Shown piece after piece: positions 14,741 through 35,446 of a stretch of DNA of 64,000 nt. The notes beneath the pieces are model-generated. The model ran no database searches and was not told the DNA's origin. It saw only the letters and a list, made by a program, of their open reading frames with translations. A program made the position numbers and the translations under genes. Positions within the stretch are counted from its first letter, which is position 1, and each line of letters starts with the position of its first letter. This DNA comes from Sphaerochaeta pleomorpha str. Grapes (GTDB lineage: Bacteria; Spirochaetota; Spirochaetia; Sphaerochaetales; Sphaerochaetaceae): contig NC_016633.1 in assembly GCF_000236685.1 (NCBI RefSeq), forward strand, positions 1,674,001-1,738,000, written 5' to 3'.

Positions 14741-14751
14741 GACAAATGCTC

Positions 14752-16050
14752 CTATTCTGCACCGGGTATCAATGTGATGATATCCTTGATCGACATACAG
14801 TTCTCGCTCGCTTCCTTGCACCTTCCGTTTTCCAGTATCAACTGGGCGGTACGCTGCATTGCAGGAAAGGCACTACGGATGAGATGGTTGGCATAGATGA
14901 CCACGCGTACGTTATGTTTGGCCAGCTCTTCCTCGTAGACGCTATTGAAAGAAGAGGGAACAACCACTATGGGGACATGGGGGAATTGCATCCCAAAGGT
15001 ATCGCAGAACTCGAATATCTCCGCAGGGTCTTTCTTCCGGCTATGGATCATAACCGCGTCGGCACCTGCACGGACGTAGGCACCCGCCCGTTTCAAGGCG
15101 TCCTCCATCCCCTGTTCGAGGATCAGGCTCTCGATACGGGCAATGATCATGAAATCCTTCGTCTGCTGGGCCTGTTTGCCCGCGGTTATCTTCCGGCAGA
15201 AATTCTCTATGGAATCCTGTTGCTGGGCAACCTCGTTACCGAACAGGGAATTCCTCTTGAGCCCTATCTTGTCCTCAATAATGACAGCGGACACCCCGAT
15301 GCGCTCCAGCGTCTTCACGTTGAACACGAAATGCTCGAGCAATCCGCCGGTATCGCCGTCAAGGATGATGGGCTTGGTCGTCACTTCCATGATCTGGTTG
15401 ATGGTATCGAGGCGGGAGGACATGTCGACTAGCTCGATGTCCGGCTTACCCTTGGCCGTTGAGTCGCAGAGAGAGGAAACCCACATGGCATCGAACCCTT
15501 CCAGCCTGTCTCCCTTGACAACCCGCGTATTCTCCACGATGAGGCCGGAAAGCCCGTTGTGGGCCTCAAGCACTCTGACAACCTTCTTGATCCTCAACAG
15601 GTTGGAAAGACGGCTCCGCCTGGTTTCGGGCAGGACACCTTGGGAGTCAATCTTGCCCCTCAGCTGCTCAATACTCACCCCTGCAGTATAGGGGTATTCC
15701 ACCAGTTCCCCGCCCCATTCACCGAGCAGGGCGATGACTTTTTCCCGCATCGTGCTCTGGACCCCGGTCCTCCAGTCATCCCCGTGCACCACGTAGTCGG
15801 GTTTGACCTCCCTCAGGTTCTTCTCATAGTCCAGCGTTTCCTGGACCAGGACATGGTCAACACCCTTAAGAGACCCTATAATCCCCATACGCTGCTCTAA
15901 GGGCATCAGCGGATAGCGTTTGTATTCGGCGATAGCTTCGTCGGTAAGGACCCCCACATACAGTTCCCCGAGTTCGCTTGCCTTGTTCAGCAAGTTGACA
16001 TGTCCAACATGGATGATGTCGGCACTCATCGCTACATATACTTTCTTCAT
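14752..16050 (-). CDS. pepM: PEP mutase with N-terminal cytidylyltransferase domain (Fom1-like fusion)
   Basis: 432-residue bifunctional protein. Residues 1 to about 135 form a nucleotidyltransferase of the glycerol-3-phosphate/phosphocholine cytidylyltransferase fold, with an H-V-G-H motif (14-17) and V-V-H-G-D-D-W (87-93). Residues about 150-425 are PEP mutase: G-D-T-G-G (232-236) and the diagnostic [10 protein letters not shown] (259-268), which separates mutase from isocitrate-lyase relatives. PEP mutase makes 3-phosphonopyruvate from PEP. The same fusion is known in Fom1 of fosfomycin producers, whose N-terminal domain forms CMP-hydroxyethylphosphonate. With a hydroxyethylphosphonate-type reductase two genes on, CMP activation of that compound is the best inference. 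The nucleotidyltransferase gene ends 9 bp upstream. Confidence 0.93.
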
Positions 16051-16059
16051 CTTTATATC

Positions 16060-16782
16060 CTATACCTTGAACCCAAGAAGTCCCCTGGCCCTGGCCAGGT
16101 CCTCCTGGTTGTCCACTTCCATGCACAGCAAACCTTTTGCATCATAGGTTCCCAACTGAACCCTTCCCAGTATCGAATTGAGGGCATTCTCTGCATATAC
16201 ATTGGTCTGTCCCCCAAGGCAGAAAGAATGTATCGCCCCCTGCCAGGCAGCCCAATCGGTACCGAGAAGCTTATACAGAGGCTGGCATGCAAGGCAACCA
16301 TCCCCGAACACATCGATGCCTATCTGCTTCACCAGCCCATCGTCACCTATCCTGGCCTTGAAATCCTTCTCGGGAATAGGGGCAAGGGAATCGACGACCA
16401 CCGTACTCTTGGGAGCCTCCATGACAGACTGAAGAACCTCACCCGAGAACAACAGGTCCCCGTGCATCAGAAGGATATCTGATGGGAAAACCATGCTACA
16501 AAGCTTATCCAGTGATACTATGTAATTCGTGGTATCGTATTCCTCGTTATAGACAAACCTGATGGCCATTGAAGGATACTTGTCCTGCAGGTATTGCTTT
16601 ATCTTGCCTTCGAGATATCCTGTCGTGATGATAATATCGGTTATCCCGCACTCAGCCAGGCGGTCAATCTGCCTTGACAGGAGGGTGTTCCCAGAGTCCA
16701 AGGCAACAAGGCATTTTGGATTGCTGGTTGTCAGTTCCTTCAGGCGCGAGCCTTTGCCTGAATTCAATATAATTGCTTGCAT
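16060..16782 (-). CDS. LicC/PntC-like nucleotidyltransferase
   Basis: 240-residue nucleotidyltransferase of the GT-A-like fold. The signature N-S-G-K-G-S-R-L-K (residues 7-15) with N-P-K-C-L precedes E-E-Y-D-T-T-N-Y-I-V-S-L and a late C-M-E-V-D-N-Q-E-D-L, as in LicC (phosphocholine cytidylyltransferase) and PntC (2-aminoethylphosphonate cytidylyltransferase). It lies 9 bp before the PEP mutase/cytidylyltransferase fusion, so the cassette holds two candidate CTP-using enzymes. One may activate the phosphonate and the other a polyol or choline-like head group. Which does which cannot be decided from sequence. Confidence 0.85.
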   Translation of the reverse strand: MQAIILNSGKGSRLKELTTSNPKCLVALDSGNTLLSRQIDRLAECGITDIIITTGYLEGKIKQYLQDKYPSMAIRFVYNEEYDTTNYIVSLDKLCSMVFPSDILLMHGDLLFSGEVLQSVMEAPKSTVVVDSLAPIPEKDFKARIGDDGLVKQIGIDVFGDGCLACQPLYKLLGTDWAAWQGAIHSFCLGGQTNVYAENALNSILGRVQLGTYDAKGLLCMEVDNQEDLARARGLLGFKV

Positions 16783-16826
16783 TGCTAAAAGACACCCCCA
16801 TTGAAAAATTCATTTTCGATTCGCAT

Positions 16827-18053
16827 TCACAACCCCAGTTCTTTTTGTTTTGCTGCTAGATAGTCAACAATCTTTTCTCCACTATGTCCGCGAAACTGCC
16901 AAGCAGTTTCCTTTGCTTGCAGTCGGTTTTTGGTAAGAGTCTCATTTTGCACAGTATCAAGTAACACCTCTTTGATAGTAGGAAAACTGCTCTCTATCAG
17001 CTCAACGCCAATCTCTGGCAAAATCTTAAACTTCCAAGGCTCTTCATCTATACTTCCCCCATCATAAGGCCGATCATCAAAATTCGCATTGACATACAAA
17101 AATGGACGATCTAATAAGAAAGAGTAATCAAAAATGACCCCTGAGAAATCTGAAATCATGATATCAGATCGAAAAAGTGTTCCAATATTTTCCCTAGAAT
17201 AATTCCACTCAAGATTACTACTTGACGCATACCGTCTCTGCAATCTCTCTAAAACAGCTTTCTCTGATTGTATAGATTGAGGATGAGGACGTACAATAAT
17301 TTGGAAACCGGTCTCCACAAGTGGATCAAGCAAACGCTCTCCATATTTACTCAGAATCCCATTACTTCCCCAAGAAGGAGCTACAAGAACGGTAAATAAG
17401 TGGTTCTCATCTGGCTCAAAGGTAGAAAGTTGTTGATTGAGCATATCCAAATACGTGCATCCGACCACAACAAGTTCTTTTTTCGCTATTCCCCGTTGCT
17501 CTTCTAAAATGCGAATATGGGCTTCTTGATATGTACCTGAAAGAAATACTGAATCAAAATAATCCAATCCGAAGAGTCTATATGAAGTAGCATCGGCCAC
17601 AGAATGGAGAACATGGGCATAATGTTTGACCCCCCTTGATCTCTTAAGCTGGTAGACATCAAGGCCTGGGGTGGTCATAAGGCAGATATCAGCCTCAAGA
17701 AAGTTCAGACGAGTGAAAGCCTTATTCCCTTCCCCGATAAATTCACCGTTTATATAGGAATATGGGTTCGAAAAGAACGGGTCTTTCTCAGCTGATGTAA
17801 AATACATGACAGAAATTTGTCTCTTCTCGAAGGCGTCAAGGATAGGTTTGAAAACACTCCAGTATCGCTCACTCTCAGAGTAGATAACAAAAGGATACCT
17901 ATTCTTATTTGAAGCAACAGCCTTTCCTCCGGTGAGAAAAAATTTGACCTTTATCAGCGCTGCCTTGGCAACAAAATAGAGCATGGTAACTAAACCAATG
18001 ATGATAGAGAACAACATACTTCCCGTTCCGGGATCTATATACAACAGCAACAT
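16827..18053 (-). CDS. Membrane-associated CDP-glycerol glycerophosphotransferase-like protein
   Basis: 408-residue protein of the TagB/TagF family, enzymes that move polyol-phosphate groups from CDP-activated donors onto glycans. One N-terminal hydrophobic segment (Y-I-D-P-G-T-G-S-M-L-F followed by an I/L/V-rich stretch) should anchor it. The GT-B-like core has V-A-P-S-W-G-S-N, I-V-R-P-H-P-Q and D-I-M-I-S-D-F-S-G-V-I-F-D-Y near 300-325, the usual C-terminal CDP-binding region. It lies 14 bp after the YidC/LTA-synthase-like gene and just before the nucleotidyltransferase/pepM genes. It could therefore use either a CDP-polyol or a CMP-phosphonate donor. Confidence 0.82.
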   Translation of the reverse strand: MLLLYIDPGTGSMLFSIIIGLVTMLYFVAKAALIKVKFFLTGGKAVASNKNRYPFVIYSESERYWSVFKPILDAFEKRQISVMYFTSAEKDPFFSNPYSYINGEFIGEGNKAFTRLNFLEADICLMTTPGLDVYQLKRSRGVKHYAHVLHSVADATSYRLFGLDYFDSVFLSGTYQEAHIRILEEQRGIAKKELVVVGCTYLDMLNQQLSTFEPDENHLFTVLVAPSWGSNGILSKYGERLLDPLVETGFQIIVRPHPQSIQSEKAVLERLQRRYASSSNLEWNYSRENIGTLFRSDIMISDFSGVIFDYSFLLDRPFLYVNANFDDRPYDGGSIDEEPWKFKILPEIGVELIESSFPTIKEVLLDTVQNETLTKNRLQAKETAWQFRGHSGEKIVDYLAAKQKELGL

Positions 18054-18067
18054 ATGTAAAAACCACC

Positions 18068-20797
18068 TTACTTAACGATAATAGGACTCCAATTAGTTTC
18101 AATGGAGATGTCATCATGAACCGTAAAACTTCTTGAATAATCAAAGGAAAATTGGGTTCCAAGGTTTTTCTTGGGATCCCAGGAACCGGTATAAACCTGG
18201 ACCTTTTGCTTCTGGACACTTTCTAGAAGGTTCTTTCCCGTAAATGGGTTCACTTTCGAAACTTCTAGATTTTCAATGGCGAGCTGAGGAAGGTCAGCAT
18301 TGGTCATAAAAGTGGAATCTGTCCTTAGTCTATCTTTTGAATTGAAATCCTTAACGAGAAGCAAGGGGTTATACCTACTATAGTCGTTCATGGCATTATC
18401 GAAATCTTTAAATAGCGGGTTGAATAAATCCTTGCCGTGGTCCGCAACGATAAAAATACGAGTATTATCATACATCCCGTCTTTTTTTAATTTTTCAAGC
18501 CATATGCCAATACGCTTGAGGGCAGCAACATAGACATGGTAGGTGGCAATATCTTTTTCACTAAGCCTAGTCATTTCATCAAAAGGAGTAGAGATATCTG
18601 TTACCCTACTTCGTGGTTCATACTCCGGAGCCTGTAAGAAGACCGGGCTATGAGCTGTTTGATTATCTATAAATGTATAGGTGTTTCCTTCGGCTGTATA
18701 ATCAGTAATGGAATCCAGATAATAAAGAGTCGAATATGAATTTAAAAAAATATCAATATCTTGCGAATTTTCATCCACTAAGAAATATCTGCCAGTATCA
18801 TATATCGTTTTTCTAAGCAAAGGTGCCAGGGCCTTCATCAGGGAAAACATAGGAAGACGCTTTTTTATGATTTTGCTTTCAGCATTTGTATTCCAATCCA
18901 AGACGTCACTGAAATCTTTCTTATATTGGACAGCATATTTTCCTTGAATATTCATTACCTTAATTTCAGGATATGGCTTGAAAGGAGTATAATCACCTTC
19001 CCACTTATAATTACAGAATGGAGGATCAGTTACGGTGACAGAATATCCTGCATCGAGAAAAAGCTTAGGCAAAACGAGGGTAGCCTCATTATGTTTATCT
19101 ACAAGTTTTTCGTTATCCCGTTTATTGATTTCTCCTGGGGTATACTCATAGCCTCCCATCATTGCAGGGGCCCCATATAAAGTATCAGTACCAAAGGATA
19201 CAGTATTCGGGTAATAAACAAATCCATCCAGCTGTTCTCTCAATTCTGGAATTTGTTCAAGGGCATAGGGGAAATAAGCATTAATAGCGCGATCAAGGAA
19301 GAGAACTACTACGTTCTTTCCTTCTTTTGAAAGATGAAAAACAGGTTTCAATCCCTCTACATCACTTCCTTTTGCTTGATTTTCCAACACATTCTGTTTG
19401 TGTTCCGTAAATTCCTTCTGAATGGTCATAGTATTCAACATACTTGCAGCTAAAGTGGTGATGGAAAGAATGAGGAACAAACCAGAGAGGATTTTATACC
19501 GTCGTTGCTTTACAAGCACCCCACATATGATAAAACATATCACTCCCACCAAAAAAGGAATTACTATAAGAGAGAGAGACGGGGTCAATACTGTAGGATT
19601 CTCAAACTCAAGATGAGTACTTACAGTCCCATAATTCCCTCTGAACAAAAACACATTGAAAAGCGATACGAGGGATAAGCACGCAAACAGATATGCAATT
19701 ATGGCTTTTGCTTTCTTCGAAGCTAACGCATAGATGGCTGAAGGCCAAACACAACAGATTCCAAAGAAAATGATAGCAGTTGAATACACATAGGACAAAG
19801 GGTTTTCCACATTACCGAGAAATGAGAATTCAATAGTTGAAGATGAAATAAGGTTGGAAGGAATTAAAAGCCCACAAAGGGCCCAAAGAATAAGACAAGA
19901 AAGAACAAACAGGAGATTCCTTCCTTTACGATTCTCTGCAAGGCTAGCAAGAAACGTAATATACATAAAATCAATGAAACGGAGAAACAAAGGGATAATA
20001 AGTATTGCGATACACCCTCCGATAAGTACTATTCTATTGGCAAAAGATAAGGAGGGGTGTGCAATACTAATTGCGACAGTTATTCCAATAGATGCAAAAA
20101 CAGCACAACCATATAAGGCCTTGAGAGGACTCTTCAACCTATAGAAACAATTCTTTACCAGCGAGAAAATATTATTCAAAGTCCAGTAATAGACCAACCC
20201 TGCAGGGGAATTATAGAGCAGGATCATAAACAAGCCAGCCATACCATACAGCTGTACTTTATCCCGCAGGGGAAATCCTTTGCTATAAATAATTCCGGCA
20301 ATTACATTGATAGCGGTCATCAATATCGGCAGGACATTGAAAGAAATGCCACCGATAGTAAGAAGTCTGTCTGGTTGTCCTAAGTCTGAAAGAAAAAAGA
20401 AGCTCTGGCCTTGCAACTGGGAAAGATTGGATAGGAAATGATAGGCTGCAATAAAAAAAGGGACCTGAATCATCAAACTGATGGAGCTTCGGAGAGCATA
20501 TGCAGGATGATAATGATTCTGCCTATAGTAGGTAGAGAGAATCATGTACTGCTCATCACCTTTGAATACAGCCTTGATCCGATCAATACCAGGTTTCAGC
20601 TTTATACGGATATCCCGTTCTCTCCTCTGGAGGGAATCGGCAATATTATACAGAGGTAAGGCAAGAAGACTAATAACGATACTAATCCCAGCTATCGCAA
20701 TCCCGCTATTATCAAAGCTTTTTAAAAAGAAAACATAAATTAATTCAACCAATAACTCTAAAGGATAAACTACTATATTATAAATAAAAGCACCCAT
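18068..20797 (-). CDS. YidC/Oxa1-like membrane domain fused to LTA-synthase/sulfatase-like domain
   Basis: 909-residue inner-membrane fusion. Residues 1 to about 225 resemble the YidC/Oxa1 insertase core: a helix ending in L-P-L-Y, a basic amphipathic loop with L-K-P-G-I-D-R-I-K, then M-I-Q-V-P-F-F-I-A-A and a late helix with N-S-P-A-G-L-V-Y-Y-W. Further membrane helices follow to about residue 460. From about residue 495 an alkaline-phosphatase-superfamily domain begins (V-V-V-L-F-L-D-R-A), with S-F-G-T-D-T-L-Y-G as probable nucleophile region and I-F-I-V-A-D-H-G-K-D as metal site. Such domains move phospho-head groups onto polymers (LtaS) or transfer phosphoethanolamine. I know of no characterised protein with this architecture. 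Position beside phosphonate genes suggests export-linked head-group transfer. Confidence 0.8.
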   Translation of the reverse strand: MGAFIYNIVVYPLELLVELIYVFFLKSFDNSGIAIAGISIVISLLALPLYNIADSLQRRERDIRIKLKPGIDRIKAVFKGDEQYMILSTYYRQNHYHPAYALRSSISLMIQVPFFIAAYHFLSNLSQLQGQSFFFLSDLGQPDRLLTIGGISFNVLPILMTAINVIAGIIYSKGFPLRDKVQLYGMAGLFMILLYNSPAGLVYYWTLNNIFSLVKNCFYRLKSPLKALYGCAVFASIGITVAISIAHPSLSFANRIVLIGGCIAILIIPLFLRFIDFMYITFLASLAENRKGRNLLFVLSCLILWALCGLLIPSNLISSSTIEFSFLGNVENPLSYVYSTAIIFFGICCVWPSAIYALASKKAKAIIAYLFACLSLVSLFNVFLFRGNYGTVSTHLEFENPTVLTPSLSLIVIPFLVGVICFIICGVLVKQRRYKILSGLFLILSITTLAASMLNTMTIQKEFTEHKQNVLENQAKGSDVEGLKPVFHLSKEGKNVVVLFLDRAINAYFPYALEQIPELREQLDGFVYYPNTVSFGTDTLYGAPAMMGGYEYTPGEINKRDNEKLVDKHNEATLVLPKLFLDAGYSVTVTDPPFCNYKWEGDYTPFKPYPEIKVMNIQGKYAVQYKKDFSDVLDWNTNAESKIIKKRLPMFSLMKALAPLLRKTIYDTGRYFLVDENSQDIDIFLNSYSTLYYLDSITDYTAEGNTYTFIDNQTAHSPVFLQAPEYEPRSRVTDISTPFDEMTRLSEKDIATYHVYVAALKRIGIWLEKLKKDGMYDNTRIFIVADHGKDLFNPLFKDFDNAMNDYSRYNPLLLVKDFNSKDRLRTDSTFMTNADLPQLAIENLEVSKVNPFTGKNLLESVQKQKVQVYTGSWDPKKNLGTQFSFDYSRSFTVHDDISIETNWSPIIVK

Positions 20798-20893: not shown

Positions 20894-22069
20894 TTAATTA
20901 CTAACCTGGGAACTTCCAATGCTATAGTAGTCTAATTTTCTCACAATAAACCTACAGACATCTTCACTTGCCTGTCCTGTTTCCCGAGTTTTATAGAAAT
21001 CGAGTATCTGTTCACAATTTTCCTTGCTATCACGATGCGGAAGATCCTTAAGAATTGAAATTAGTTCTGCTTGCGTCTGGGCAATCCAAAAGGGTGAATT
21101 ATCCAAATCGAAATAGAAAGCCCTGTCATGTGCAAGGTAGCTTTCCCTGTCATCTTGAAAGAGAATCAGAGGACGCTTGGTGAGGGCAAAATCCCCGGCA
21201 CTTGAAGAATAATCAGTTATAAGGATATCAGCAATTTGCAACAGGTCTGCCATATCCTCATGGGAAGATACATTGATGATTCTCGTAGATTCCGGTATTC
21301 CACCCAAACCAATTACTTTGTTATGGGCACGAACCAACATGTTCCATTTCACTCCTGTGGAATGTTCAAGAGCATCGAGAACTGCAATCATATCAAATTC
21401 TTGGACTTCTTGATTCTCCTTTGAATGGGTGGCCTTTCGCCTCAAGGTAGGAGCATAGAGAATATATTTTACCTCTGGATCGAATGAAAGCATACGTTTT
21501 GTCTGGTTCACTGATTCCTTATCAATGTGGACTAATTTGTCATTCCGTGGAGTACCAGTCTTTAATATCTCACCAGTATACCTGAATGCCGATCGGAAAA
21601 CAGACTCAGCAAAATCAGACCCGGCCAAAGTTAAATCACACGTAGTTGTTTCGGGTAATTGATTCTTCTTTGAACGGGGATTACAGTCATTCAAAATCTT
21701 CTTGAAGCCTCTGTCACCGTGCCACGTCTGGATATATATCTGGTTCTTCCCTTTATAGGCCCAATAGGGCTGAGTATCGTTAAATACCCAGATCCGTGCC
21801 GTAGCAAGCTCATAGACAGCACGTAAACTCCATCGTTTTGCAATCTTTAGATAGGAAGGAACCAACGTTCGTTTCTGTTCAGGGTTGTTGAATAGCCAAA
21901 TTTGTTCTATGGAAGGATCCATGACATGCAAGTGTTCCGATATTGCCTTTGGGTTGTCAGAATAGGAACCGCCAGAAAAACTGCAAAACACCACTTTACG
22001 GGGATTTAGGGGAAGCATTGCATGAACGAGATGCATTAAACCAAGTTTTAATTTTATTGAATTAAACAT
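20894..22069 (-). CDS. CDP-glycerol glycerophosphotransferase family protein (TagF-like)
   Basis: 391-residue cytosolic/peripheral transferase. K-V-V-F-C-S-F-S-G-G-S-Y-S-D-N-P-K-A near the N-terminus, I-Q-T-W-H-G-D-R-G-F-K-K near residue 125, I-L-Y-A-P-T-L-R-R and D-I-L-I-T-D-Y-S-S near 285 are classical TagF/TagB signatures. Predicted to add glycerol- or ribitol-phosphate units from a CDP-polyol. The ATG at 22069 is preferred over longer in-frame starts because it overlaps the flippase stop by only a few bases, as expected in a coupled operon. 96 bp separate it from the YidC-fusion gene. Confidence 0.9.
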   Translation of the reverse strand: MFNSIKLKLGLMHLVHAMLPLNPRKVVFCSFSGGSYSDNPKAISEHLHVMDPSIEQIWLFNNPEQKRTLVPSYLKIAKRWSLRAVYELATARIWVFNDTQPYWAYKGKNQIYIQTWHGDRGFKKILNDCNPRSKKNQLPETTTCDLTLAGSDFAESVFRSAFRYTGEILKTGTPRNDKLVHIDKESVNQTKRMLSFDPEVKYILYAPTLRRKATHSKENQEVQEFDMIAVLDALEHSTGVKWNMLVRAHNKVIGLGGIPESTRIINVSSHEDMADLLQIADILITDYSSSAGDFALTKRPLILFQDDRESYLAHDRAFYFDLDNSPFWIAQTQAELISILKDLPHRDSKENCEQILDFYKTRETGQASEDVCRFIVRKLDYYSIGSSQVSN

Positions 22070-23543
22070 TGCCTTTTCTCGCTTTCTTCTTACGAAGTAC
22101 TGCAAATGCATCTTGTATCGATCCTCGGTTTGCCAGATAGACAATGCTGAGAAAAACCAAAAGAACAACAGCCTTGTAGACAATATTGCCAAATGAAATT
22201 ACATTTGCATACCGTGTATAACTAAAATAGAGACCAGTTACAAGAAACAACACCGTAAGCAATGACAATCCAATAAAATGGCCAATATTGTACCCTATTT
22301 TATCAAACTTATTGGAAATCCAGACAACAATACCAACCCTGATAACCATCGCAATGGCATCAGCTGCAACGGACCCGTACATCCCATATTTTTGAATTAA
22401 AAAGTATGATAAGGCTACATTAACCAGGCTACTGGTTACCGTTGCCGTGAATATATATTTTGATGCCTTTTTATAATAAAAGAGAATATTTATATAAAAA
22501 TAATAAGGGGTCTTCAGGGAAAACGTGATAACAATCAGCGGAACCAGTTTCCAGGATTCTTCATATTGTGAGCTTGCCATGAGCACAATCAACTCCTGAC
22601 AAAAAAGACCTACGCAAAGGAATAAGAAACTATAAAACCAAACCAAGACACTGGATAAATCAACTATTTGTTTTCTGTCGAAACCTTTTTTATTCATCTG
22701 GTCGTAGAACCATGGTTGAAAAGCCGCGTTGACAGAGCTTTGCACCAAATCGGCCAAGGAACCAAAACGGCTTGCAAGGCTAAACAAACCGACAGAAGCC
22801 AAAGACGAAGTTCCATTGATAAAGACCTTGGAAACAAACTGGGCAATCTGGGTCGATAGGTTATGGGGAATTATCGGAATGGAATAACTGAGAGTTTCTT
22901 TTAAAATTGTCTTGTCGAGGCAAAACCGAATGAGATGAAGCCGCTTCAAATCAAAAAGCATCCAGATACATGCAAGGGAGCTGCTTATTACCAAAGAGAG
23001 CAATACTCCGTTTGCCCCCCAGCTAAAGAAAGCGACGAACAAGATATTTAATATTACCTGCAGAAAGAAATAGGAAATACTGACCATTGCAGATTTCCTT
23101 GCTTCCTGCATTCCCTTCAAAATGTCTTGATAAATCGTATAAAGACTGGTGAAGACCAAGGCTATCAGCGCCATGAGCACTGAAGGGTAGAAATCAACTC
23201 CCTGGAACAAGAATTTTGCCAATACATTCTTAAGCAATAGAGCCAGGATAAAAAACACACAGCCCGACAGGAACACAAAGCAAATCACCGTTCCGAAAAA
23301 AGTCCTGACTTTTTCAAGGTCATGCTTATAATCCGCATAAAACCTTATAACTGCCGAGTATAGGCTAAAGGCAATGATATAGGTGGAAACCGCAGAAAAA
23401 CTCGACAGCAGGTTAATAACACCATAGTCAGTCGTAGTGAGAAAAACGGTATACAGAGGCAACAATAAGAAGTTGAAGGCTTTCAACAAAATATTGTTAA
23501 ATGTATAGATGAGTGAGTTTTTAAGAACCTTTTTATTTGTCAT
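22062..23543 (-). CDS. Polysaccharide flippase (Wzx/MOP superfamily)
   Basis: 493-residue protein with about 12-14 hydrophobic helices, the size and profile of Wzx-type lipid-linked oligosaccharide flippases. The N-terminal T-N-K-K-V-L-K-N-S-L-I-Y-T-F-N-N with Y-G-V-I-N-L-L-S-S is typical of the family. It should flip the lipid-linked repeat made by this locus for the polymerase encoded just upstream (23605-25710). It overlaps the TagF-like gene and is one of three flippases in the window. Confidence 0.92.
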   Translation of the reverse strand: MTNKKVLKNSLIYTFNNILLKAFNFLLLPLYTVFLTTTDYGVINLLSSFSAVSTYIIAFSLYSAVIRFYADYKHDLEKVRTFFGTVICFVFLSGCVFFILALLLKNVLAKFLFQGVDFYPSVLMALIALVFTSLYTIYQDILKGMQEARKSAMVSISYFFLQVILNILFVAFFSWGANGVLLSLVISSSLACIWMLFDLKRLHLIRFCLDKTILKETLSYSIPIIPHNLSTQIAQFVSKVFINGTSSLASVGLFSLASRFGSLADLVQSSVNAAFQPWFYDQMNKKGFDRKQIVDLSSVLVWFYSFLFLCVGLFCQELIVLMASSQYEESWKLVPLIVITFSLKTPYYFYINILFYYKKASKYIFTATVTSSLVNVALSYFLIQKYGMYGSVAADAIAMVIRVGIVVWISNKFDKIGYNIGHFIGLSLLTVLFLVTGLYFSYTRYANVISFGNIVYKAVVLLVFLSIVYLANRGSIQDAFAVLRKKKARKGNV

Positions 23544-23604: not shown

Positions 23605-25710
23605 TCATTTATTGGTCATTCTTTCTGGCAATGCCAACCAACTTCCAAGAAGCAAGTCGTATTGTTCAGGTTCAAATTCTACAAACCCTGAAAAATGGAA
23701 AAATGTCAATTCACCAAAAAGGATCGTGTCATTTGCATCAATATAGAAATCGACACGTACGTGGGGCATCCCTGCAGACAAAACCCTTGCAAGGGAAAGC
23801 ATTTTTTCCCACTGTTGAGGTTTGGGAATATCATAGGTGCTATTTGGATAATGCTGAATAAGGGGAATTCTGTTCCAATCAACGTCAAAATAGTCAAATT
23901 TTGTGGTTTTCCCTCTATCCGAAGCTACAAAAGCAAATTTGGGTATCCCGTCAAAACAAAATATTTTATAATCCCTAGGAGGGTTTCCATCAGAAGTTTC
24001 GATTAGCTGTTCACATACAATTCTTGGCTTCACATCTTTATAAGGCCATTCCCTATCATACCAATAGTAGTTTTTCCCCATCCAAGCATGCATCTCACCT
24101 ATGGCAGCATCCCTGTTCAACTTTGCTTTGTCCCTACAGATGATTACATCCCCAGAAGTCTGGGTAGGTTTCAACACAAAAGCATCGGGAAGTGAATCAA
24201 AATCAATATCGTCAACTTTGTCATAGACCCCAATAAGAGGGATAAGGTATTCAGAGCCAATCGTATTGGCTATATGTTCCCTTACCTCATATTTGTCGAC
24301 AAGCTTTGTATACATCTCTTTTCTATCATAGAGCTTCAGCCACTGGAGTTTCTCGTTATACGTCTTTGGATTTTTAAGGTCCAGCTTCTTTTTAAGCGAC
24401 ATACGATATTTTATGGTTACAAAGGTTTTATCAGAAAGTAGCCGGGCAACTTTCCATTTTAGCATATGCAATACCAAAAGACGCGGACTACTGACCCATT
24501 CCTTCGCCTTTCTGAAAATATGCTCGAGGCTTTTACCTGAGTTTGCATCCCTTCTGGCTACACCAACATAACATAATGCAAGCAGTATTGTTGGCAACTC
24601 CTCATTGAATGTAACCCTTCCTAGGTTGTCGACTAACATGACAAGAAGAAGCGTTACAGATAGAATCGTTCCATTCTGCATCCTTCTCATAAAAAACATT
24701 TTCAAGCCTTTCGCCAAAAGCAAAAGAGGAAGCAAATAATACCAGAGGGTGCCAACAATACCCAAGGAAACAAGCAATTCGATGTAATTATTATGGGCAT
24801 AGACACTGAAGCCACCGACATTGGTAAAAGCCCCATATCCCCAACCAAAGAAAGGTTTCTCTTTAAACATTTCCCAGCCGCGAACCATCATCTCCATCCT
24901 GATCGAAGTGCTACTGCCCGATTGCCCCTCAGTAGGATAGACGAAAAAGGTTTCTATCTGACGTCCGCAAATTCTGTATAGGGGTTCCCATTTCATGGAT
25001 AGGTACAATACAGAAATGATTAGAAAAGCTACAATTCCAAACGATAAAAAGGAACGCTGGAGATTTTTTCGGGTAAGAAAAAACAGAAGCACACTGCCAA
25101 TGATAAGTATTGCTATCATTTTCCCGGAACCTGAGAAAAGACTCAGAAAACTGAAGGCAATGAAGATGATTCCAAAATACCATTTTTTGGCATCAAGAAA
25201 ACGATATAGCGCTACCAAGCCAGTCATAGAGAACAAATAGCCAACAGTATTTGCATTAATAGCTATAGTCTCACCCAAGCGTCTTGTTACAAAATCCTGA
25301 AATGGAGTTTTTATAACCAAGCGGACAACTACCACAAAAGTTGCAAAAAATAAACAATTCAGAAAAAATCTATAGTTTCTCTCTGACTCGAGTATATAGG
25401 CAATAAGCAAATTGGCAAAAATCATTACCTGAAGTATGGAAATTGCCCCATCCAATGCAAGAGAACTGCTAGTTGCGTACAATAGGGAACAGAAAGAAAG
25501 AGCAATAAACCCCAGGCTCCAAAAAGCGAAGGTGGTGAGTTTAGATTTTAAAACTAGAAATCTGATTCCAAAAACCAGGATAAACAATATCTCTACAGGT
25601 AGAAATACCTTGTGGTTGTTAAGACCAAAAGCCATAAGGATACTGAGAAAAACCAAAAGGGATATATCACAAAAAGTATCAAATACTTTGTGATTGTAAA
25701 TTGAATTCAT
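23605..25710 (-). CDS. O-antigen polymerase/ligase fused to TupA-like ATP-grasp domain
   Basis: 701-residue fusion. Residues 1 to about 410 form a polytopic membrane region with the Wzy/WaaL-type motif G-W-G-Y-G-A-F near 300, followed by a Y-A-H-N-N-Y-I-E-L segment, marking the O-antigen ligase/polymerase family. Residues about 440-695 form a cytosolic ATP-grasp domain like TupA: P-K-T-Y-N-E-K-L-Q-W-L-K-L, V-D-K-Y-E-V-R, D-Y-K-I-F-C-F-D-G, H-V-R-V-D-F-Y, F-G-E-L-T-F-F. TupA-like proteins are linked to adding amino acids or peptides to uronic acids. ATG 25710 with GGGAG 6 nt before it is preferred over the ATG five codons upstream. A stand-alone TupA lies at 35447-36334. Confidence 0.85.
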   Translation of the reverse strand: MNSIYNHKVFDTFCDISLLVFLSILMAFGLNNHKVFLPVEILFILVFGIRFLVLKSKLTTFAFWSLGFIALSFCSLLYATSSSLALDGAISILQVMIFANLLIAYILESERNYRFFLNCLFFATFVVVVRLVIKTPFQDFVTRRLGETIAINANTVGYLFSMTGLVALYRFLDAKKWYFGIIFIAFSFLSLFSGSGKMIAILIIGSVLLFFLTRKNLQRSFLSFGIVAFLIISVLYLSMKWEPLYRICGRQIETFFVYPTEGQSGSSTSIRMEMMVRGWEMFKEKPFFGWGYGAFTNVGGFSVYAHNNYIELLVSLGIVGTLWYYLLPLLLLAKGLKMFFMRRMQNGTILSVTLLLVMLVDNLGRVTFNEELPTILLALCYVGVARRDANSGKSLEHIFRKAKEWVSSPRLLVLHMLKWKVARLLSDKTFVTIKYRMSLKKKLDLKNPKTYNEKLQWLKLYDRKEMYTKLVDKYEVREHIANTIGSEYLIPLIGVYDKVDDIDFDSLPDAFVLKPTQTSGDVIICRDKAKLNRDAAIGEMHAWMGKNYYWYDREWPYKDVKPRIVCEQLIETSDGNPPRDYKIFCFDGIPKFAFVASDRGKTTKFDYFDVDWNRIPLIQHYPNSTYDIPKPQQWEKMLSLARVLSAGMPHVRVDFYIDANDTILFGELTFFHFSGFVEFEPEQYDLLLGSWLALPERMTNK

Positions 25711-25826
25711 TAATCTCTCCCACATTCTGCTTCGATGTGAACAGGCCCCAATAATTTGTTCATTATCGCAATATTCCAGTATTGCTTCAAGGAAGAATCA
25801 TTTTATTTACTCATCTTTCCTTCTTC

Positions 25827-26930
25827 CTACTTGTAGGCGGTAATTGTTTCCTCTATGGTATCCAACCATTTTTTACATATCTGTCTGCTATCCAATTCAT
25901 TCCGTACACAAAGAGCATTGCGACTCATTTCGAAAGCAAGTTTTGGATTCTCAATTATGAAAAGCATGGCTTCAGCCAAGGCTTTCTCATTAAAGCGGGG
26001 AACTACAAGACCATTCTTGTTGTTAATCACCAAAGTCCCCCGACCTTCACTGTAATCGGTAGTAACGACAGGAAGCCCCATCGCCATAGCTTCAATCAAG
26101 GCATTGGGCATCCCTTCGAAATTGGAGGACATTACAAACATATGGGCTTTCTGAAGCTTGGGAAAAATTGAGGACTCAATTCCTGGCAAGGATACAGAAG
26201 ATTCCAGATGCAATGAGGAAATTAACTGTTCCAGCTGCATACGTTGATCGCCCTCACCGTAGATCGTCAAAGTACACTGTGGATGTTTTTCATGGACCAA
26301 AAAAAACGCTTTTATCAACAATTGCTGGTTTTTCTGTTTTGAAAGTCTTCCCGCAGACATAATCTCCATTGTGTTGTTGATTCCTGTGTTCGGGGAAGGA
26401 AGATCTTCCAAATACAGCGGGTTAGGAATAACCACCCCTCGAAAGCTGTCTCTCCGGTAATAATAGGTCTTCGCACTTTCCGTCTGGAACACAGCGCGAT
26501 AAGCAAACTTATGATAGGCAAACCTGATAACTTTCTTTTCCAGATTACTGAACGATTGAGTGGTGTTTGGATCATTCCGTTCTGACAAGAGAATCGGTAT
26601 TTTCAAACCAGCACAAGCAAAAGCGGTCAATGAACCGCTATAGGACATCATACCCAAAACAAGGCTCGGTTGGATTTTCTTGATAGTATTTCTTATTTGC
26701 TTGATCAGGGCACGATATCGTACCAAGGGGTTTTTGCTCTCAGAGGGGTCCAGTTGGATATAATGCACCAAACCTGCAAGCGGGTAGGCCGGTTCTGTCT
26801 TGGTCAGAGATATCAGATAGATATCCTTGTTACAGGAAACAAAGTAATTTGACAAATAGGCGGTCACCCTCTCAGCTCCGCCAAAAGACATACCGGTAAT
26901 GACAATGGCTATTTTGTTGTTTTCATTCAT
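25827..26930 (-). CDS. Glycosyltransferase family 4
   Basis: 367-residue GT-B glycosyltransferase. The N-terminal G-M-S-F-G-G-A-E-R-V acceptor loop and the C-terminal F-E-G-M-P-N-A-L-I-E-A-M-A-M-G-L-P-V-V motif (EX7E) place it in GT4, retaining enzymes using nucleotide-sugar donors. It should add one sugar to the lipid-linked repeat on the cytoplasmic face. Donor and linkage are not predictable. Confidence 0.92.
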   Translation of the reverse strand: MNENNKIAIVITGMSFGGAERVTAYLSNYFVSCNKDIYLISLTKTEPAYPLAGLVHYIQLDPSESKNPLVRYRALIKQIRNTIKKIQPSLVLGMMSYSGSLTAFACAGLKIPILLSERNDPNTTQSFSNLEKKVIRFAYHKFAYRAVFQTESAKTYYYRRDSFRGVVIPNPLYLEDLPSPNTGINNTMEIMSAGRLSKQKNQQLLIKAFFLVHEKHPQCTLTIYGEGDQRMQLEQLISSLHLESSVSLPGIESSIFPKLQKAHMFVMSSNFEGMPNALIEAMAMGLPVVTTDYSEGRGTLVINNKNGLVVPRFNEKALAEAMLFIIENPKLAFEMSRNALCVRNELDSRQICKKWLDTIEETITAYK

Positions 26931-30058: not shown

Positions 30059-31069
30059 CTAATGCGTGTAGTATTCCTTGAACCAAGAGACAAAGGAACC
30101 CAACCCATCAGAAAGCGGAGTATTCGGTTTGAAGTCAAAATCAGCTTCAAGGTCGGATACATCTGCATAGGTCTGGTACACATCTCCCATTTGCATGGGG
30201 AGATACTCCTTGACCGCTTTCTTTCCCAGACACTGTTCCAGAGTCTCGATAAAGTACATCAGTTTCTCCGGCTTGTTATTCCCTATGTTGTAGATCTTGT
30301 ATCTGTCTCCGTGCTCGTTTTCAAGTGGAGGGTTGCACAACATGTTCTCCATTCCCTTCACGATGTCATCTATGTAGGTAAAGTCGCGGTACATATCCCC
30401 GTTGTTGAATACCTTGATAGCCTCCCCTTCCATGATTTTTTTGCTAAAGGAAAAGTAGGCCATATCGGGTCTGCCATAAGGACCATAGACCGTGAAGAAC
30501 CGCAATCCGGTAGAAGGGATGCCATAGAGGTGGGTGTAGCAATGAGCCATGAGCTCGTTCGACTTCTTGGTCGCCGCATACAGACTTACCGGGCTGTCCA
30601 CCTTGTCTGCAGTTGAAAACGGTATCTTGTCATTCATGCCATATACACTGCTTGAAGAGGCGTAGACAAGATGGGAAACAGGATTATGCCTGCACGCTTC
30701 CAGGATGTTCAAAAACCCCACCAGATTCGACTGCAGATAAGCATAGGGGTTGTCTATGCTGTAGCGCACCCCTGCCTGGGCTGCGAGGTTCACTACCACA
30801 GAGGGAGAATAGGTAGCAAACAAACCATCGACGGCAACCTTGTCGGCCAAGTCTCCCTTTACAAAGGTGAAGGAGGACGATGCAGACAAAAGGATATCAA
30901 GCCTGGCTTGCTTGAGTGAAACATCATAATAGTCGTTGAGATTGTCAAACCCGATGACCGTACACCCAAGGTCAAGCAAGCGCTTAGAGAGGTGAAACCC
31001 TACAAAGCCTGCACTTCCGGTAATCAGATAGGTTTTCGAACGGTCGAGCATCTGGAAATCTGGTCTCAT
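30059..31069 (-). CDS. UDP-glucuronate 4-epimerase
   Basis: 336-residue extended SDR converting UDP-glucuronate to UDP-galacturonate. I-T-G-S-A-G-F-V-G-F-H binds NAD; S-S-S-S-V-Y-G and Y-A-A-T-K-K are the catalytic segments; R-F-F-T-V-Y-G-P-Y-G-R-P-D-M-A and the N-D-Y-Y-D loop after the second strand are characteristic of the glucuronate-specific subgroup. It follows the UDP-glucose dehydrogenase gene, which supplies the substrate, but terminators before and after it imply partly independent expression. Confidence 0.92.
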   Translation of the reverse strand: MRPDFQMLDRSKTYLITGSAGFVGFHLSKRLLDLGCTVIGFDNLNDYYDVSLKQARLDILLSASSSFTFVKGDLADKVAVDGLFATYSPSVVVNLAAQAGVRYSIDNPYAYLQSNLVGFLNILEACRHNPVSHLVYASSSSVYGMNDKIPFSTADKVDSPVSLYAATKKSNELMAHCYTHLYGIPSTGLRFFTVYGPYGRPDMAYFSFSKKIMEGEAIKVFNNGDMYRDFTYIDDIVKGMENMLCNPPLENEHGDRYKIYNIGNNKPEKLMYFIETLEQCLGKKAVKEYLPMQMGDVYQTYADVSDLEADFDFKPNTPLSDGLGSFVSWFKEYYTH

Positions 31070-31145: not shown

Positions 31146-32438
31146 TTATCGCCCTATCGAATAATATTCAACCCCGGCAGCTTTCATCGCAGCTGGGTCG
31201 AAAAGATTTCTCCCATCATAGACCAAGGGAGTGCGCATGAGGCGTTTGAATTCCTCGGGAGCAGTTTCCTTGATCTCTTTCCAGTCGGTGAAGATGAAGC
31301 AAATCTGGGCACCTTGCAAAGTCTCTGCTACCGTCGGGCTATACGTCATAGAAAAGTTAAACTGCTTTTTACAGTTTTCCTCGGCCACAGGATCGAAGGC
31401 GGTAATATCAGCTCCTTGCTCAAGGAGCAAGGGGATGTTGTACAAAGCCGGTGACTCACGAAGATCATCTGTCCCTGCCTTGAAGGCAAGACCGAGCACT
31501 GCCACCTTGATACCATTGAAGGTAATCATACGGTTGCAGGCCTTCTTGAACAAAACGGTTCTCTGCGAAGTATTGACAGCCACAGCCGCCCCTACAGTCT
31601 TGAGGTTGTACCCATGTTGCTTGGCAAGGTATTCCAGAGCCTTGGTATCCTTGGGGAAACAGCTGCCCCCGTATCCGATACCGGCTTGCAAAAACCTTGA
31701 ACCTATTCGTTCATCATAGGCCATTCCCTTGGCAACATCTTCAATGTCAGCCCCTACCAGCTCACAGAGATTGGCAAGGTCATTCATATAAGAGATTTTC
31801 AAGGCCAAGAAGTCATTGGCAGCATACTTGCTCATTTCTGCACTGCGTCGCTTTACTGCGACGATGGGCAAATTGAAGGGGGCATAGATAGAACGCAAGA
31901 CAGACTCCGCGTTCTTGCTCTCCACCCCGATGATAATGCGCGCGGCATGCATCATGTCATGGACTGCAGTACCCTGGGCTAGGAACTCGGGATTGGAAGC
32001 TACCTCAACACAGACATCGTTGATCAAAGAATCTTTTATGAACTGTTCCACCTTGTCGTTGGTCCCCACCGGGACAGTGGACTTTACCACAACCAGACAG
32101 TCATGGGTGACGCTCTCGGCTATCTGCCTGGCTACAGTAGCAACATATTTCAGATTGGCAGACCCGTCGCTCTGTTCAGGAGTCCCAACTCCGATGAAAA
32201 TGGCTTCTGCAGAAGCGTAGGCTGACCGGTAATCGGTTGTGAAATGCAGTAAATCGGAAGCAATCCCTTCTTTCAGGAATGCCTCAAGGTTTTCCTCATA
32301 GATTGGGCTTACCCCGCTACGTAGCAGTTCCACTTTCTTCTGATCAATATCAACACACGTTACAGTATGCCCGACATGGGCAAAACAGACACCAGCGACT
32401 AGGCCGACATAGCCGGTACCGGCAATGGTTAGGTTCAT
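31146..32438 (-). CDS. ugd: UDP-glucose 6-dehydrogenase
   Basis: 430-residue enzyme oxidising UDP-glucose to UDP-glucuronate with two NAD+. N-terminal A-G-T-G-Y-V-G-L (NAD site), central G-I-G-Y-G-G-S-C-F-P-K-D with the catalytic Cys, and C-terminal R-E-S-P-A motifs are all present. ATG 32438 with GGGAG upstream begins exactly at the Rossmann strand; the longer open frame is not supported. Product feeds the 4-epimerase next door and possibly TupA-modified uronic acid units. Confidence 0.95.
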   Translation of the reverse strand: MNLTIAGTGYVGLVAGVCFAHVGHTVTCVDIDQKKVELLRSGVSPIYEENLEAFLKEGIASDLLHFTTDYRSAYASAEAIFIGVGTPEQSDGSANLKYVATVARQIAESVTHDCLVVVKSTVPVGTNDKVEQFIKDSLINDVCVEVASNPEFLAQGTAVHDMMHAARIIIGVESKNAESVLRSIYAPFNLPIVAVKRRSAEMSKYAANDFLALKISYMNDLANLCELVGADIEDVAKGMAYDERIGSRFLQAGIGYGGSCFPKDTKALEYLAKQHGYNLKTVGAAVAVNTSQRTVLFKKACNRMITFNGIKVAVLGLAFKAGTDDLRESPALYNIPLLLEQGADITAFDPVAEENCKKQFNFSMTYSPTVAETLQGAQICFIFTDWKEIKETAPEEFKRLMRTPLVYDGRNLFDPAAMKAAGVEYYSIGR

Positions 32439-32691
32439 TTCATGCTCCCGAAATTCAACTTGGAAACCAGGTAAGACAAGCGTGGCTTTCAGATATCTAG
32501 GATACATGAAAAACAGTAATAAGTCAGCTTCAATTGTGAAGAGAATCAAAGAAAGAGCTTTTCATCGGTAAGAGACCTGCTTTTATTATCCTTTTCGATT
32601 ACTCAGATTTATCAACCGCTTTTGTCAAATACAATATGAAGAAAGAATCATTCCAAAGACCACATACTCCTGTAATTACTAGCTAATCGCC

Positions 32692-34215
32692 TTAGACGCG
32701 TGTTTTCCCCTCTTTGCCTTTTTGATTCCCCTCCCTTTCACGGTTCCTTAAAGATGCAACAATCTCAAAGTAATCGGCTTTACAAAAAAAGCGAACAGAA
32801 AGGAAATACTCAACAATACAAATGAGTATCGAAGCAATATACCAAAGATTTGAAGTAGAAAAGTTCCTAAGAACGAGAGCAAACAGACTCATCAATAATG
32901 AGGCTGCTAGAGGCCTTATAGTATTTTGTATTGTTGCGAGATGAGAAATGCCGAAAAAAAATCGTAACAAAAGAAACGCTATCGGTATTCCGGTTATTCG
33001 AGCTACAATCCTCCATATCACAAAGGATTGGAAACCATTCTTTAGAGAAATCATCACTAAAGGTATAATAATTGATAACCATAGAATTTGGTGAAGCACC
33101 GATATTTTTGGTTTTCCCTTGGAACGATACACCTCACTGGCAAAAGCAGAGAAAACGACAACAAAACCAGAAGACAAAGCCCAGGCACCAATCAGGGGGG
33201 CTGCTTCAACCCAGTTTTCACCCAGTAAAAAAACTGTAATAAAGTCCCTAAATATGAAAATACCCATGCCAAGGGGTATTAACAGATAGGCTACAATTTT
33301 TTGGGTTCGTTGGTAAGTCGCATTGAATTGTGCTTCATTTTGCTGACATCTGGATAAGGCCGGGAAAAGAACAGAAGTAAAAGATGCCGTGACAATTACG
33401 GTAATGGAATTAACCAGGGATATTGAATTCTTATAAAGCCCAATGTAATACGGGGACAAGAATGTATGTATCAAAAACACATCAATCCAACTGGTAAGCC
33501 AAATTGAAATCGATTCAATCAAAGACCAATAACTAAATGAGAACATTTGTTTCAAAATCGTAAGAGAATAAAAAAACCTGGGCTTCCAATCTGAAAGGAA
33601 CGTCAAGACAAGTACATGCATTGCACTTGAAGAAAGAGTGCCAAATAACAAAGCCCAATAACCAAACCCCTGCAAAGCCAAAGGCACAGTAACTGCAAAG
33701 GGTATGCAGGCAGCAATCAGCCTGGCCCAAAACAAAGCCTTGAACTGGAATTTTCTCTTGTAGATTGCCGTTTGAATGCTGGTTAAGGCAATGAGAGGGA
33801 GAGAAAAACAAGAAACAACCAAAGGTTTCTCATATCCCTCGTTACCGAGAAAGAGTGCAAAAGGTTTTCTAAATAGAATTAAAATTGCCAGTAAAAGCAG
33901 AGATATTGCAAAATTGGTCCAGAAAGCAACGCAGGCATTTTCTTCCAACTCATCATTGGTTCGAAACTCATGCTGGATAATGTATTTGGAGAAACCAGCA
34001 TCGGCAAACATCGATGCAAAACTGGTTATCATGGTAATATTGGCAATGATTCCAAAAGCTTGTGGCAATAGCAACCTTGCGAGGATAATGCTCACAATAG
34101 GTTGCACAAGCGTTATCGAAACCTCAGTGACTACAGACCATTTTGTCGCACTGGATACCTTTCTTTCAAAGGAATGTACAGTGAGCTCCTTTGCCTCAAG
34201 ATTTGGAATATCCAT
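32692..34215 (-). CDS. Polysaccharide flippase (Wzx/MOP superfamily)
   Basis: 507-residue multi-helix membrane protein. K-V-S-S-A-T-K-W-S near the N-terminus and L-L-P-Q-A-F-G-I-I-A-N match lipopolysaccharide-type Wzx/WzxC exporters. It begins directly after the CapA stop codon (no gap), so the two are cotranscribed. Second flippase of the window, likely serving the uronic-acid-containing polymer. Confidence 0.92.
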   Translation of the reverse strand: MDIPNLEAKELTVHSFERKVSSATKWSVVTEVSITLVQPIVSIILARLLLPQAFGIIANITMITSFASMFADAGFSKYIIQHEFRTNDELEENACVAFWTNFAISLLLLAILILFRKPFALFLGNEGYEKPLVVSCFSLPLIALTSIQTAIYKRKFQFKALFWARLIAACIPFAVTVPLALQGFGYWALLFGTLSSSAMHVLVLTFLSDWKPRFFYSLTILKQMFSFSYWSLIESISIWLTSWIDVFLIHTFLSPYYIGLYKNSISLVNSITVIVTASFTSVLFPALSRCQQNEAQFNATYQRTQKIVAYLLIPLGMGIFIFRDFITVFLLGENWVEAAPLIGAWALSSGFVVVFSAFASEVYRSKGKPKISVLHQILWLSIIIPLVMISLKNGFQSFVIWRIVARITGIPIAFLLLRFFFGISHLATIQNTIRPLAASLLMSLFALVLRNFSTSNLWYIASILICIVEYFLSVRFFCKADYFEIVASLRNREREGNQKGKEGKTRV

Positions 34216-35382
34216 CTACCCGATCTCATTCTCTGGGAAATTTGAAATCTCGGCTCTCAACCCTTCGCCAACTAGTTCCTGATGAGCCTCACAGGTAAGG
34301 AAATTTGACAATTGCAGCATTTTTTTCTCAGAAAACATTGTTTGTAACAATCTTCCTCTAAAGATCATCCGGTCGAATCGATTAAACCATGAACCGAGCC
34401 CTGAAAATTCATACAGATAGGTAGACAGGGATTTTTTGGAAAAATCACGATAGGTTTCTTCCAAGAACCTCTGGGATATGATTGCTTTGGACCTTTCGTT
34501 CAAAGAAGAGAGAATAGCTTCCCTCTCTTCCCCCATAGCCAGATACACAGAACCTGTCCCATCTAATTTCTTTTTAATCGGGATATAAGTAATTTTTGGA
34601 GGGAAATCTTTGTCAATCTCATAGGCAAGAAGCAAGCTATCGAAAGAAAGAGGATTATCCAGATCAAAGATAAAATTCCCCTGCCCATACACGATATCTT
34701 TCCCTTTGTACTTCTCATAGGCGCCAATACAATGGCTATGCTGGCAAACAACCAGGGAAGCCCCTTTATCCACAAGATATCTACATGCCTTCTGGAGATT
34801 TGGTGAAGGGAATTGAAAGTATTCCTTCCCACCATGATAGAGCACGATGAGGATATCCAATTTTAATGCTTGTATTTTTTCTTTGATATAATCTCCAGTA
34901 TGCAAGGGATCGAAAGGATTTGCCCCGGGAGAATTATCACTTGCAATGGAGAATTCGTGCTCAGTGCAAGCAAAGAGGCCGATTCTCAGCTCGGATAATT
35001 CAATGACCGAGATTTTTTCCGCTTCCGAAAGGTTGGGTCCAGCACCAAAATAATGAGATCTGTTTTCCTTGAGAATTTTTAACGTTGAGTGAAAACCAAG
35101 GGGCCCTTGGTCAAGGATGTGATTATTTGCCAAGCCTACATAATCAAGATGCAAAGATTTCAACCCTTTCCTTACGGAAATGGGAACAACTAAATTGGGA
35201 CCGTTTTTCATTATTGGCATAGATATATCTGTTACAGGAGCCTCAAGGTTTACAATTCTAATATCTGCCGATTCCCATTCTTTCAATAAAGCTTTGTCCA
35301 GGATTGCAGACGCATCACCCGTACAAAATGCCTGCACATTTTTTTCCGTTGGAACCAAATCACCCCCAATGAGAAATTTCAT
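34216..35382 (-). CDS. CapA-like poly-gamma-glutamate/capsule metallophosphatase-fold protein
   Basis: 388-residue PGA_cap-domain protein with the calcineurin-like metal motifs G-G-D-L near the start, N-L-E-A-P-V, L-A-N-N-H-I-L-D-Q-G and C-Q-H-S-H-C-I-G, then Y-G-Q-G-N-F-I-F-D. CapA supports poly-gamma-glutamate capsule formation; its exact reaction is unsettled. There is no N-terminal signal peptide or membrane anchor, so this copy appears cytosolic, unlike typical CapA. Adjacent TupA-like genes raise the possibility of a glutamate- or amino-acid-modified glycan. Confidence 0.85.
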   Translation of the reverse strand: MKFLIGGDLVPTEKNVQAFCTGDASAILDKALLKEWESADIRIVNLEAPVTDISMPIMKNGPNLVVPISVRKGLKSLHLDYVGLANNHILDQGPLGFHSTLKILKENRSHYFGAGPNLSEAEKISVIELSELRIGLFACTEHEFSIASDNSPGANPFDPLHTGDYIKEKIQALKLDILIVLYHGGKEYFQFPSPNLQKACRYLVDKGASLVVCQHSHCIGAYEKYKGKDIVYGQGNFIFDLDNPLSFDSLLLAYEIDKDFPPKITYIPIKKKLDGTGSVYLAMGEEREAILSSLNERSKAIISQRFLEETYRDFSKKSLSTYLYEFSGLGSWFNRFDRMIFRGRLLQTMFSEKKMLQLSNFLTCEAHQELVGEGLRAEISNFPENEIG

Positions 35383-35446
35383 GGTTGTATCCTCTATTTT
35401 TTAAGGCTAGGGAAATGAAAAGCGACAAACGCTCACCTTATTACCC

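Follow-up and report, generated by a model that had tools for sequence, protein, structure and literature searches.

A Wzy_C-type membrane protein fused in frame to a TupA-like ATP-grasp domain in a surface-glycan gene cluster of Sphaerochaeta pleomorpha

A single gene of Sphaerochaeta pleomorpha str. Grapes encodes a polymerase/ligase-type membrane protein of the Wzy_C family that continues into a TupA-like ATP-grasp domain. We propose, with moderate confidence, that its product is a bifunctional surface-polysaccharide enzyme, in which a Wzy polymerase acting outside the membrane is joined to a cytosolic TupA domain that amidates a uronate of the lipid-linked repeat unit. The gene lies in a stretch of 64,000 nucleotides (NC_016633.1, positions 1,674,001 to 1,738,000; hereafter the window), to which all coordinates refer unless a locus is named.

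Results

One reading frame encodes both domains

The minus-strand frame at 23605-25725 runs for 706 codons without an internal stop in the ORF list (Table 1). Pfam places Wzy_C (PF04932) at residues 188-329 of the fused protein (E = 1.1e-16; 61.4 bits against a cut-off of 31.7) and ATPgrasp_TupA (PF14305) at residues 458-695 (E = 6.1e-61; 206.4 bits against a cut-off of 25). These are the only Pfam matches at E values up to 0.1, and the protein has no GT2 domain. NCBIfam has no model matching the fused protein or the stand-alone TupA. The original prediction, made from the letters of the window, of an uninterrupted frame leading from a polymerase/ligase region into TupA was therefore correct: a single ORF carries both domains over their Pfam cut-offs. 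The ATG of residue 6, at 25710, from which the original prediction had the gene start, falls in a column that is invariant in an alignment of four fused proteins, and on this evidence may be the true start of the gene. The host genome (3,590,853 bases, one contig) contains two PF14305 matches over the cut-off, the fused gene and the separate TupA that had also been predicted at 35447-36334; one further match is weak and below the cut-off.

Table 1 Features of the fused gene and its cluster in the window
Feature	Position	Strand	Basis or remark
Fused gene, Wzy_C-type polymerase/ligase and TupA-like ATP-grasp, 706 aa	23605-25725	-	ORF and Pfam; alternative start 25710
Membrane part, residues 1-395; 12 predicted helices; conserved R149, R276 and H311, predicted on the outer side	24541-25725	-	
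Basic linker and N-terminal helices of the TupA part, residues 396-457	24355-24540	-	Recombination breakpoint between residues 449 and 466
TupA-like ATP-grasp core, residues 458-695	23641-24354	-	Pfam, model, fold matches
Glycosyltransferase, family 4/1 type, directly upstream of the fused gene	25827-26930	-	Pfam
Wzx-type flippase (Polysacc_synt), directly downstream of the fused gene	22062-23543	-	Pfam
CDP-glycerol glycerophosphotransferase-like (Glyphos_transf)	20894-22192	-	Listed frame and flippase gene overlap; the real start is probably more internal
Phosphonate branch: Glyphos_transf-like, NTP transferase, PEP mutase with cytidylyltransferase domain, phosphonopyruvate decarboxylase, Fe-alcohol dehydrogenase	12477-18053	-	
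Nucleotide-sugar epimerase/dehydratase, possibly uronate 4-epimerase	30059-31069	-	
UDP-glucose 6-dehydrogenase (TuaD-like), UDP-glucuronate source	31146-32549	-	
Flippase, beside the PGA_cap gene of the stand-alone TupA	32692-34215		
PGA_cap gene, beside the stand-alone TupA	34216-35382	-	
Stand-alone TupA-like ATP-grasp protein, 295 aa	35447-36334	-	PF14305, E = 2.2e-59

Topology and predicted active site of the membrane half

The helices of the membrane half were set by hand, guided by family-averaged hydropathy, and sidedness was assigned by charge. The resulting 12-helix model of the fused protein has 18 Lys and Arg residues inside and 7 outside, and the inside holds more of them than the outside in all 11 Wzy homologues. 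In this model, R149 (loop 5-6), R276 and H311 (both loop 9-10) are outside, and the C-terminus and TupA are inside. An automatic helix call, used alone, gave 10 helices and no clear charge bias. The AlphaFold model of the membrane half is poor (pLDDT mostly below 60) because the relatives used were limited to the window sequence, viral-contig sequences and one genome_contigs sequence, and the topology therefore rests on hydropathy, hand-set helices and charge. The charge-based model agrees with the earlier claim that the TupA part is cytosolic; the charge bias supports this probable location, short of proof.

No substitution of R276 or H311 occurs among the 11 Wzy homologues, and R149 is almost as strictly conserved. 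A sequence search of the PDB gave a single match, the Cupriavidus ligase 7tpg (E = 0.0023), with an Arg aligned with R276 and a His with H311. In an O-antigen ligase structure from the literature, two Arg residues bind pyrophosphate and a His is the proposed activator of the acceptor (PMC10920833).

Fold and conserved residues of the TupA half

AlphaFold modelled the TupA half with pLDDT mostly above 90. Foldseek found resemblance to LysX, ArgX, RimK, PsnB, DcsG and Ddl, and in VIA-align 2 the D-Ala-D-Ala ligases were best (Z 14.2, rmsd 4.2, 215 aligned). The ATP-grasp matches of the modelled half are thus mostly carboxylate-amine ligases. Carbamoyl phosphate synthetase and carboxylases scored nearly as well (Z 12.1-13.5), and therefore the fold alone leaves the reaction unfixed. 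Family and fold together suggest an ATP-dependent carboxylate-amine ligase with amide chemistry.

An alignment of up to 37 rows has 51 columns with at least 80% agreement, and the fused protein departs in one of them. It has Gln522 where 33 of 37 rows have His; of the other three deviating rows, two have Asn and one has Trp, and this is the sole Gln of the set. The conserved polar residues K519, E559, E572, D585, K587, R657, D659 and E672 are kept.

The fusion in relatives

Three further genomes of the genus (G001, G002 and G025) encode the same in-frame architecture in proteins of 698-702 aa with 44-49% identity. Wzy_C and TupA exceed the Pfam cut-offs in all four fused proteins, and their alignment has no gap at the junction. 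The G025 frame is unbroken at 698 aa, the TGA within its match being the terminal stop codon in the ORF list. Fused proteins are present in 4 of the 139 genomes of the family, all four within the genus's 26 genomes; the fusion is established but narrow in distribution. Separate genes are indeed the usual arrangement, as had been stated: in G005, G012 and G019, Wzy and TupA occur only as separate genes in the same cluster, and G001 and G025 have a second, separate Wzy/TupA pair in addition to the fused gene. Most relatives have two proteins or neither, as would be expected if an error in sequencing, assembly or annotation had merged two genes. Such an artefact is nevertheless extremely improbable, and a missed stop or frameshift at 24400-24500 was rejected, because three independent genomes share the in-frame fusion at this level of divergence with a gapless junction; relatives do not always encode two proteins.

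Three of the separate Wzy/TupA pairs consist of neighbouring genes. In the G001 pair (L038), the TupA start overlaps the Wzy stop by 4 bases (GTGA); the G005 pair (L042) has a gap of 74 bases; and the G025 pair (L040) has a gap of 78 bases and a reversed order, with TupA first. The gene run around the G025 pair resembles the window: a glycosyltransferase, TupA and Wzy, a flippase, a CDP-glycerol-type transferase, and then phosphonate genes (PEP mutase, phosphonopyruvate decarboxylase, NTP transferase and alcohol dehydrogenase). The window differs in having two extra genes after the CDP-glycerol-type transferase and in the NTP transferase preceding PEP mutase. Given the likeness of the two runs, the fused gene occupies the slot of the two separate genes. 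GT4-type genes lie upstream of the Wzy/TupA genes in relatives as well.

Mosaic history of the two halves

We compared the fused protein of the window (F_G000) with those of the relatives (F_G001, F_G002 and F_G025) in trees of each half. The Wzy tree places F_G002 beside F_G001 and F_G025 (93/97), and F_G000 beside the separate Wzys found in G005, G012 and G019 (82/92); it does not reject a union of all fused rows in one clade (p-AU 0.15). The TupA tree does reject such a union (p-AU 0.0195). In it, F_G000 and F_G002 form a five-row clade with the TupAs of G005, G012 and G025 (100/99), and F_G001 and F_G025 group with a truncated TupA of G001 (96/90).

A breakpoint scan divided F_G002 at the start of the ATP-grasp core. 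Up to residue 449, the sites shared only with G001/G025 against those shared only with G000 number 103 to 32; from residue 466, the sites shared only with G000 outnumber those shared only with G001/G025 by 49 to 11. None of 10,000 site shuffles gave an equally strong break, a rough value since shuffling disregards rate differences along the protein; identity profiles agree. The stand-alone TupA of G019 has a like break near residues 565-573 (40:6, then 9:23), with an equally rough shuffle value of 0 in 10,000. Taken together, the trees and the scan show that the ATP-grasp core has been exchanged like a module, with the polymerase and linker in front of it kept constant. This mosaic may explain the conflicting tree tests on a single fusion origin.

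The idea that the core type (A or B) tracks the neighbouring genes was rejected: the neighbours in G012 (type A) closely resemble those in G019 (type B). G001 also has a type B core. On the strand opposite to the fused gene of G001, and close to it, lies a TupA lacking its N-terminal part (L037:778-1452, plus strand), which is closest to the core of that fused gene and is possibly a remnant of a core exchange.

TupA fusions in other genomes, plasmids and viral contigs

We surveyed genome samples from two phyla (392 and 395 genomes). PF14305 is present in 24 of the 392 genomes of the host's phylum, with six frames of more than 600 codons outside the genus. Four of these are glycosyltransferase fusions, with GT8 (L056), GT2 (L064) or RgpF (L070 and L078); L052 has no Pfam domain besides TupA, and L073 has a PF14305 match under the cut-off without a preceding membrane part. 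The other sample was drawn from the phylum to which G517, a genome with a Bacteroidales record, belongs, and 35 of its 395 genomes have matches. It contains two long frames, one of 1202 codons with TupA followed by a family-4 transferase and the other a sub-cut-off match. Among the examined long TupA frames of the two samples, no Wzy-TupA fusion was found outside the genus. The plasmid records gave 141 matches, none covering at least 80% of the query; the genome_contigs search gave a single distant Bacteroidales Wzy; the viral_contigs search gave no relative of the whole protein and none of the Wzy half. No description of a Wzy-TupA fusion was found in the open-access literature searched. The fusion has so far been seen only in a few close relatives within the genus.

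TupA-like ATP-grasp genes occur in 35 IMG/VR loci (L088-L122), many on contigs of more than 100 kb, and at least one viral locus (L098) encodes TupA followed by a GT2 domain. One Brachyspira hyodysenteriae plasmid (G173 contig C2) has three TupA genes (L055, L074 and L078), one of them fused to RgpF; a TupA match on a 32,598-base contig of G173 coincides in position with one on the B. hyodysenteriae plasmid NZ_CP016085.2, which has the same length. RPDQT repeats close some of the TupA frames in these relatives.

Cluster neighbours and substrate supply

The UDP-glucose dehydrogenase and the epimerase can supply uronic acid. The dehydrogenase is present in all 11 genus genomes tried and is not specific to those with the fusion. 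The genes at 12477-18053, including PEP mutase, look like a phosphonate-to-glycan branch. PEP mutase and phosphonopyruvate decarboxylase exceed their cut-offs and the Fe-alcohol dehydrogenase is below every equivalog cut-off; judging from its phosphonate genes, the window more likely has a branch to hydroxyethylphosphonate than to an amine. 2-Aminoethylphosphonate (AEP) was considered as the amine here and found no support: AEP transaminase is over the cut-off in one of seven genomes (G002), which is not the host's. In G002 it is fused to an NTP transferase (L049:11085-12911, minus strand; PhnW-AepZ over the cut-off), and a similar-looking NTP transferase in G005, G012 and G019 has a CobD-like domain instead, below the CobD cut-off. 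The PEP mutase itself (14752-16050, minus strand) has an N-terminal cytidylyltransferase-like domain.

Further along the cluster, a 909-aa protein (18068-20797, minus strand) combines a YidC/Oxa1 insertase domain (60KD_IMP) with a sulfatase/alkaline-phosphatase-type domain. Six genus relatives carry proteins of 45-57% identity to it in their Wzy/TupA clusters, with two copies in G002, and nothing on such a fusion was found in the literature searched. The stand-alone TupA and PGA_cap genes (34216-36334, minus strand) form with the adjacent flippase a trio that also occurs in G001 (L038), after a Wzy gene and with its order kept.

Discussion

We propose a pathway in which both halves of the fused protein act on the same repeat unit. 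The N-terminal half would be a Wzy polymerase of GT-C type that spans the membrane 12 times. On its outer side, R149 and R276 are proposed to bind the undecaprenyl pyrophosphate donor, with H311 as the activator of the acceptor. The TupA half would work in the cytosol on a uronic acid of the lipid-linked repeat unit, activating its C6 carboxylate and linking this to an amine. The Wzx flippase (22062-23543) would then move the amidated unit outward, where the Wzy half would polymerise it. A uronate acceptor is suggested by the UDP-glucose dehydrogenase in the cluster and, by analogy, by the precedent in Campylobacter; the order of amidation, flipping and polymerisation is presumed, as is a benefit from the physical coupling of two tethered reactions.

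Wzy_C comprises both polymerases and ligases, and the membrane half might instead be O-antigen-ligase-like (WaaL or an O-oligosaccharyltransferase), passing an amidated, finished glycan to lipid or protein. The 7tpg match and the Pfam name of Wzy_C, 'O-Antigen ligase', speak for such a role. We regard it as unlikely: the fused gene adjoins a flippase gene within a glycan cluster, the window holds no second Wzy_C protein, and the other of the two in the genome lies 0.75 Mb away. It is similarly doubtful that no uronamide is formed because the TupA half has become degenerate in this copy or catalyses a different ATP-grasp reaction (with an amino acid or a phosphonate as substrate, for example). 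Gln522 in place of the family His and the phosphonates made by the cluster point that way; against it, the remaining strongly conserved columns are intact, the frame has no stop or frameshift, and the core is common to F_G002, which keeps the His.

The closest competitor of the proposed coupling accepts the same chemistry and denies only that the two reactions are coupled. The fusion would be a membrane anchor, with TupA acting independently and the joining setting only stoichiometry and place; we give this reading a nearly even chance. It accords with the separate genes of genus relatives, with the swapping of the TupA core across types while the Wzy half stays unchanged, which argues against tight co-adaptation, and with the stand-alone TupAs, whose basic N-terminal stretch (7-12 K+R against 2-3 D+E among residues 1-48 in eight proteins) could sit on the membrane. 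Coupling, in contrast, has a precedent in the Campylobacter transferase that requires an amidated acceptor (see below), and it is favoured by the adjacency of Wzy and TupA in the three separate pairs, one of them overlapping. A stronger form of coupling, cross-membrane licensing, would have the Wzy half polymerise only units amidated by its own TupA half, with the core as an exchangeable cassette; we put this forward as a speculation that is probably wrong. If it held, a strain could alter the decoration of its surface sugar by a core swap while keeping its polymerase.

Our understanding of Wzy polymerases is limited, and the question of how such an enzyme, acting outside the membrane, distinguishes decorated from undecorated units is open. 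A decorating enzyme on the inner face of the polymerase makes the recognition of decorated units testable within one protein, and the mosaic TupA core suggests a route for the diversification of surface glycans.

Comparison with known systems

The TupA half belongs to the family named after TupA of Bacillus halodurans, which is associated with teichuronopeptide. Teichuronopeptide is described as an acidic polymer of polyglutamate and polyglucuronate (PMC8153356), and the TupA/PGA_cap/flippase trio recalls, by analogy, this polyglutamate/glucuronate theme. Here, however, the PGA_cap companion adjoins the stand-alone TupA and not the fused gene. The membrane half shares the Wzy_C domain, the Arg/His pattern and the predicted sidedness with the WaaL O-antigen ligase (7tpg) and Wzy polymerases; unlike the fused protein, 7tpg is a chain of 413 residues without a cytosolic enzyme domain. 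The TupA fusions with GT2, GT8, GT4 or RgpF (L056, L064, L070, L078, L155 and the viral contig L098) likewise join TupA to a glycan-building enzyme, but their partners are transferases of soluble type, and none is a Wzy_C membrane protein.

The nearest precedent, an experimentally tested one, is Cj1438 of Campylobacter jejuni (HS:2), together with the HS19.11 capsule proteins, in which a TupA-like ATP-grasp amidoligase stands C-terminal to a polymerising glycosyltransferase (PMC11800379). According to the same text, Cj1438C consumes ATP in forming amides of glucuronate with either serinol-P or ethanolamine-P, and only amidated acceptors are extended by the GT2 half (PMC11800379). The two halves of Cj1438 are separated by a 127-residue middle domain described there as uncharacterised in function (PMC11800379), whereas a short linker joins them here. 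Cj1438 has a GT2 that uses a nucleotide sugar; the protein described here has a Wzy_C half of 12 predicted helices with a putative lipid-linked donor across the membrane. Fusion of TupA to a glycosyltransferase is thus already known, and Wzy_C is the unusual partner; what is new relative to Cj1438, in the model presented here, is the placement of two predicted active sites on opposite faces of the membrane.
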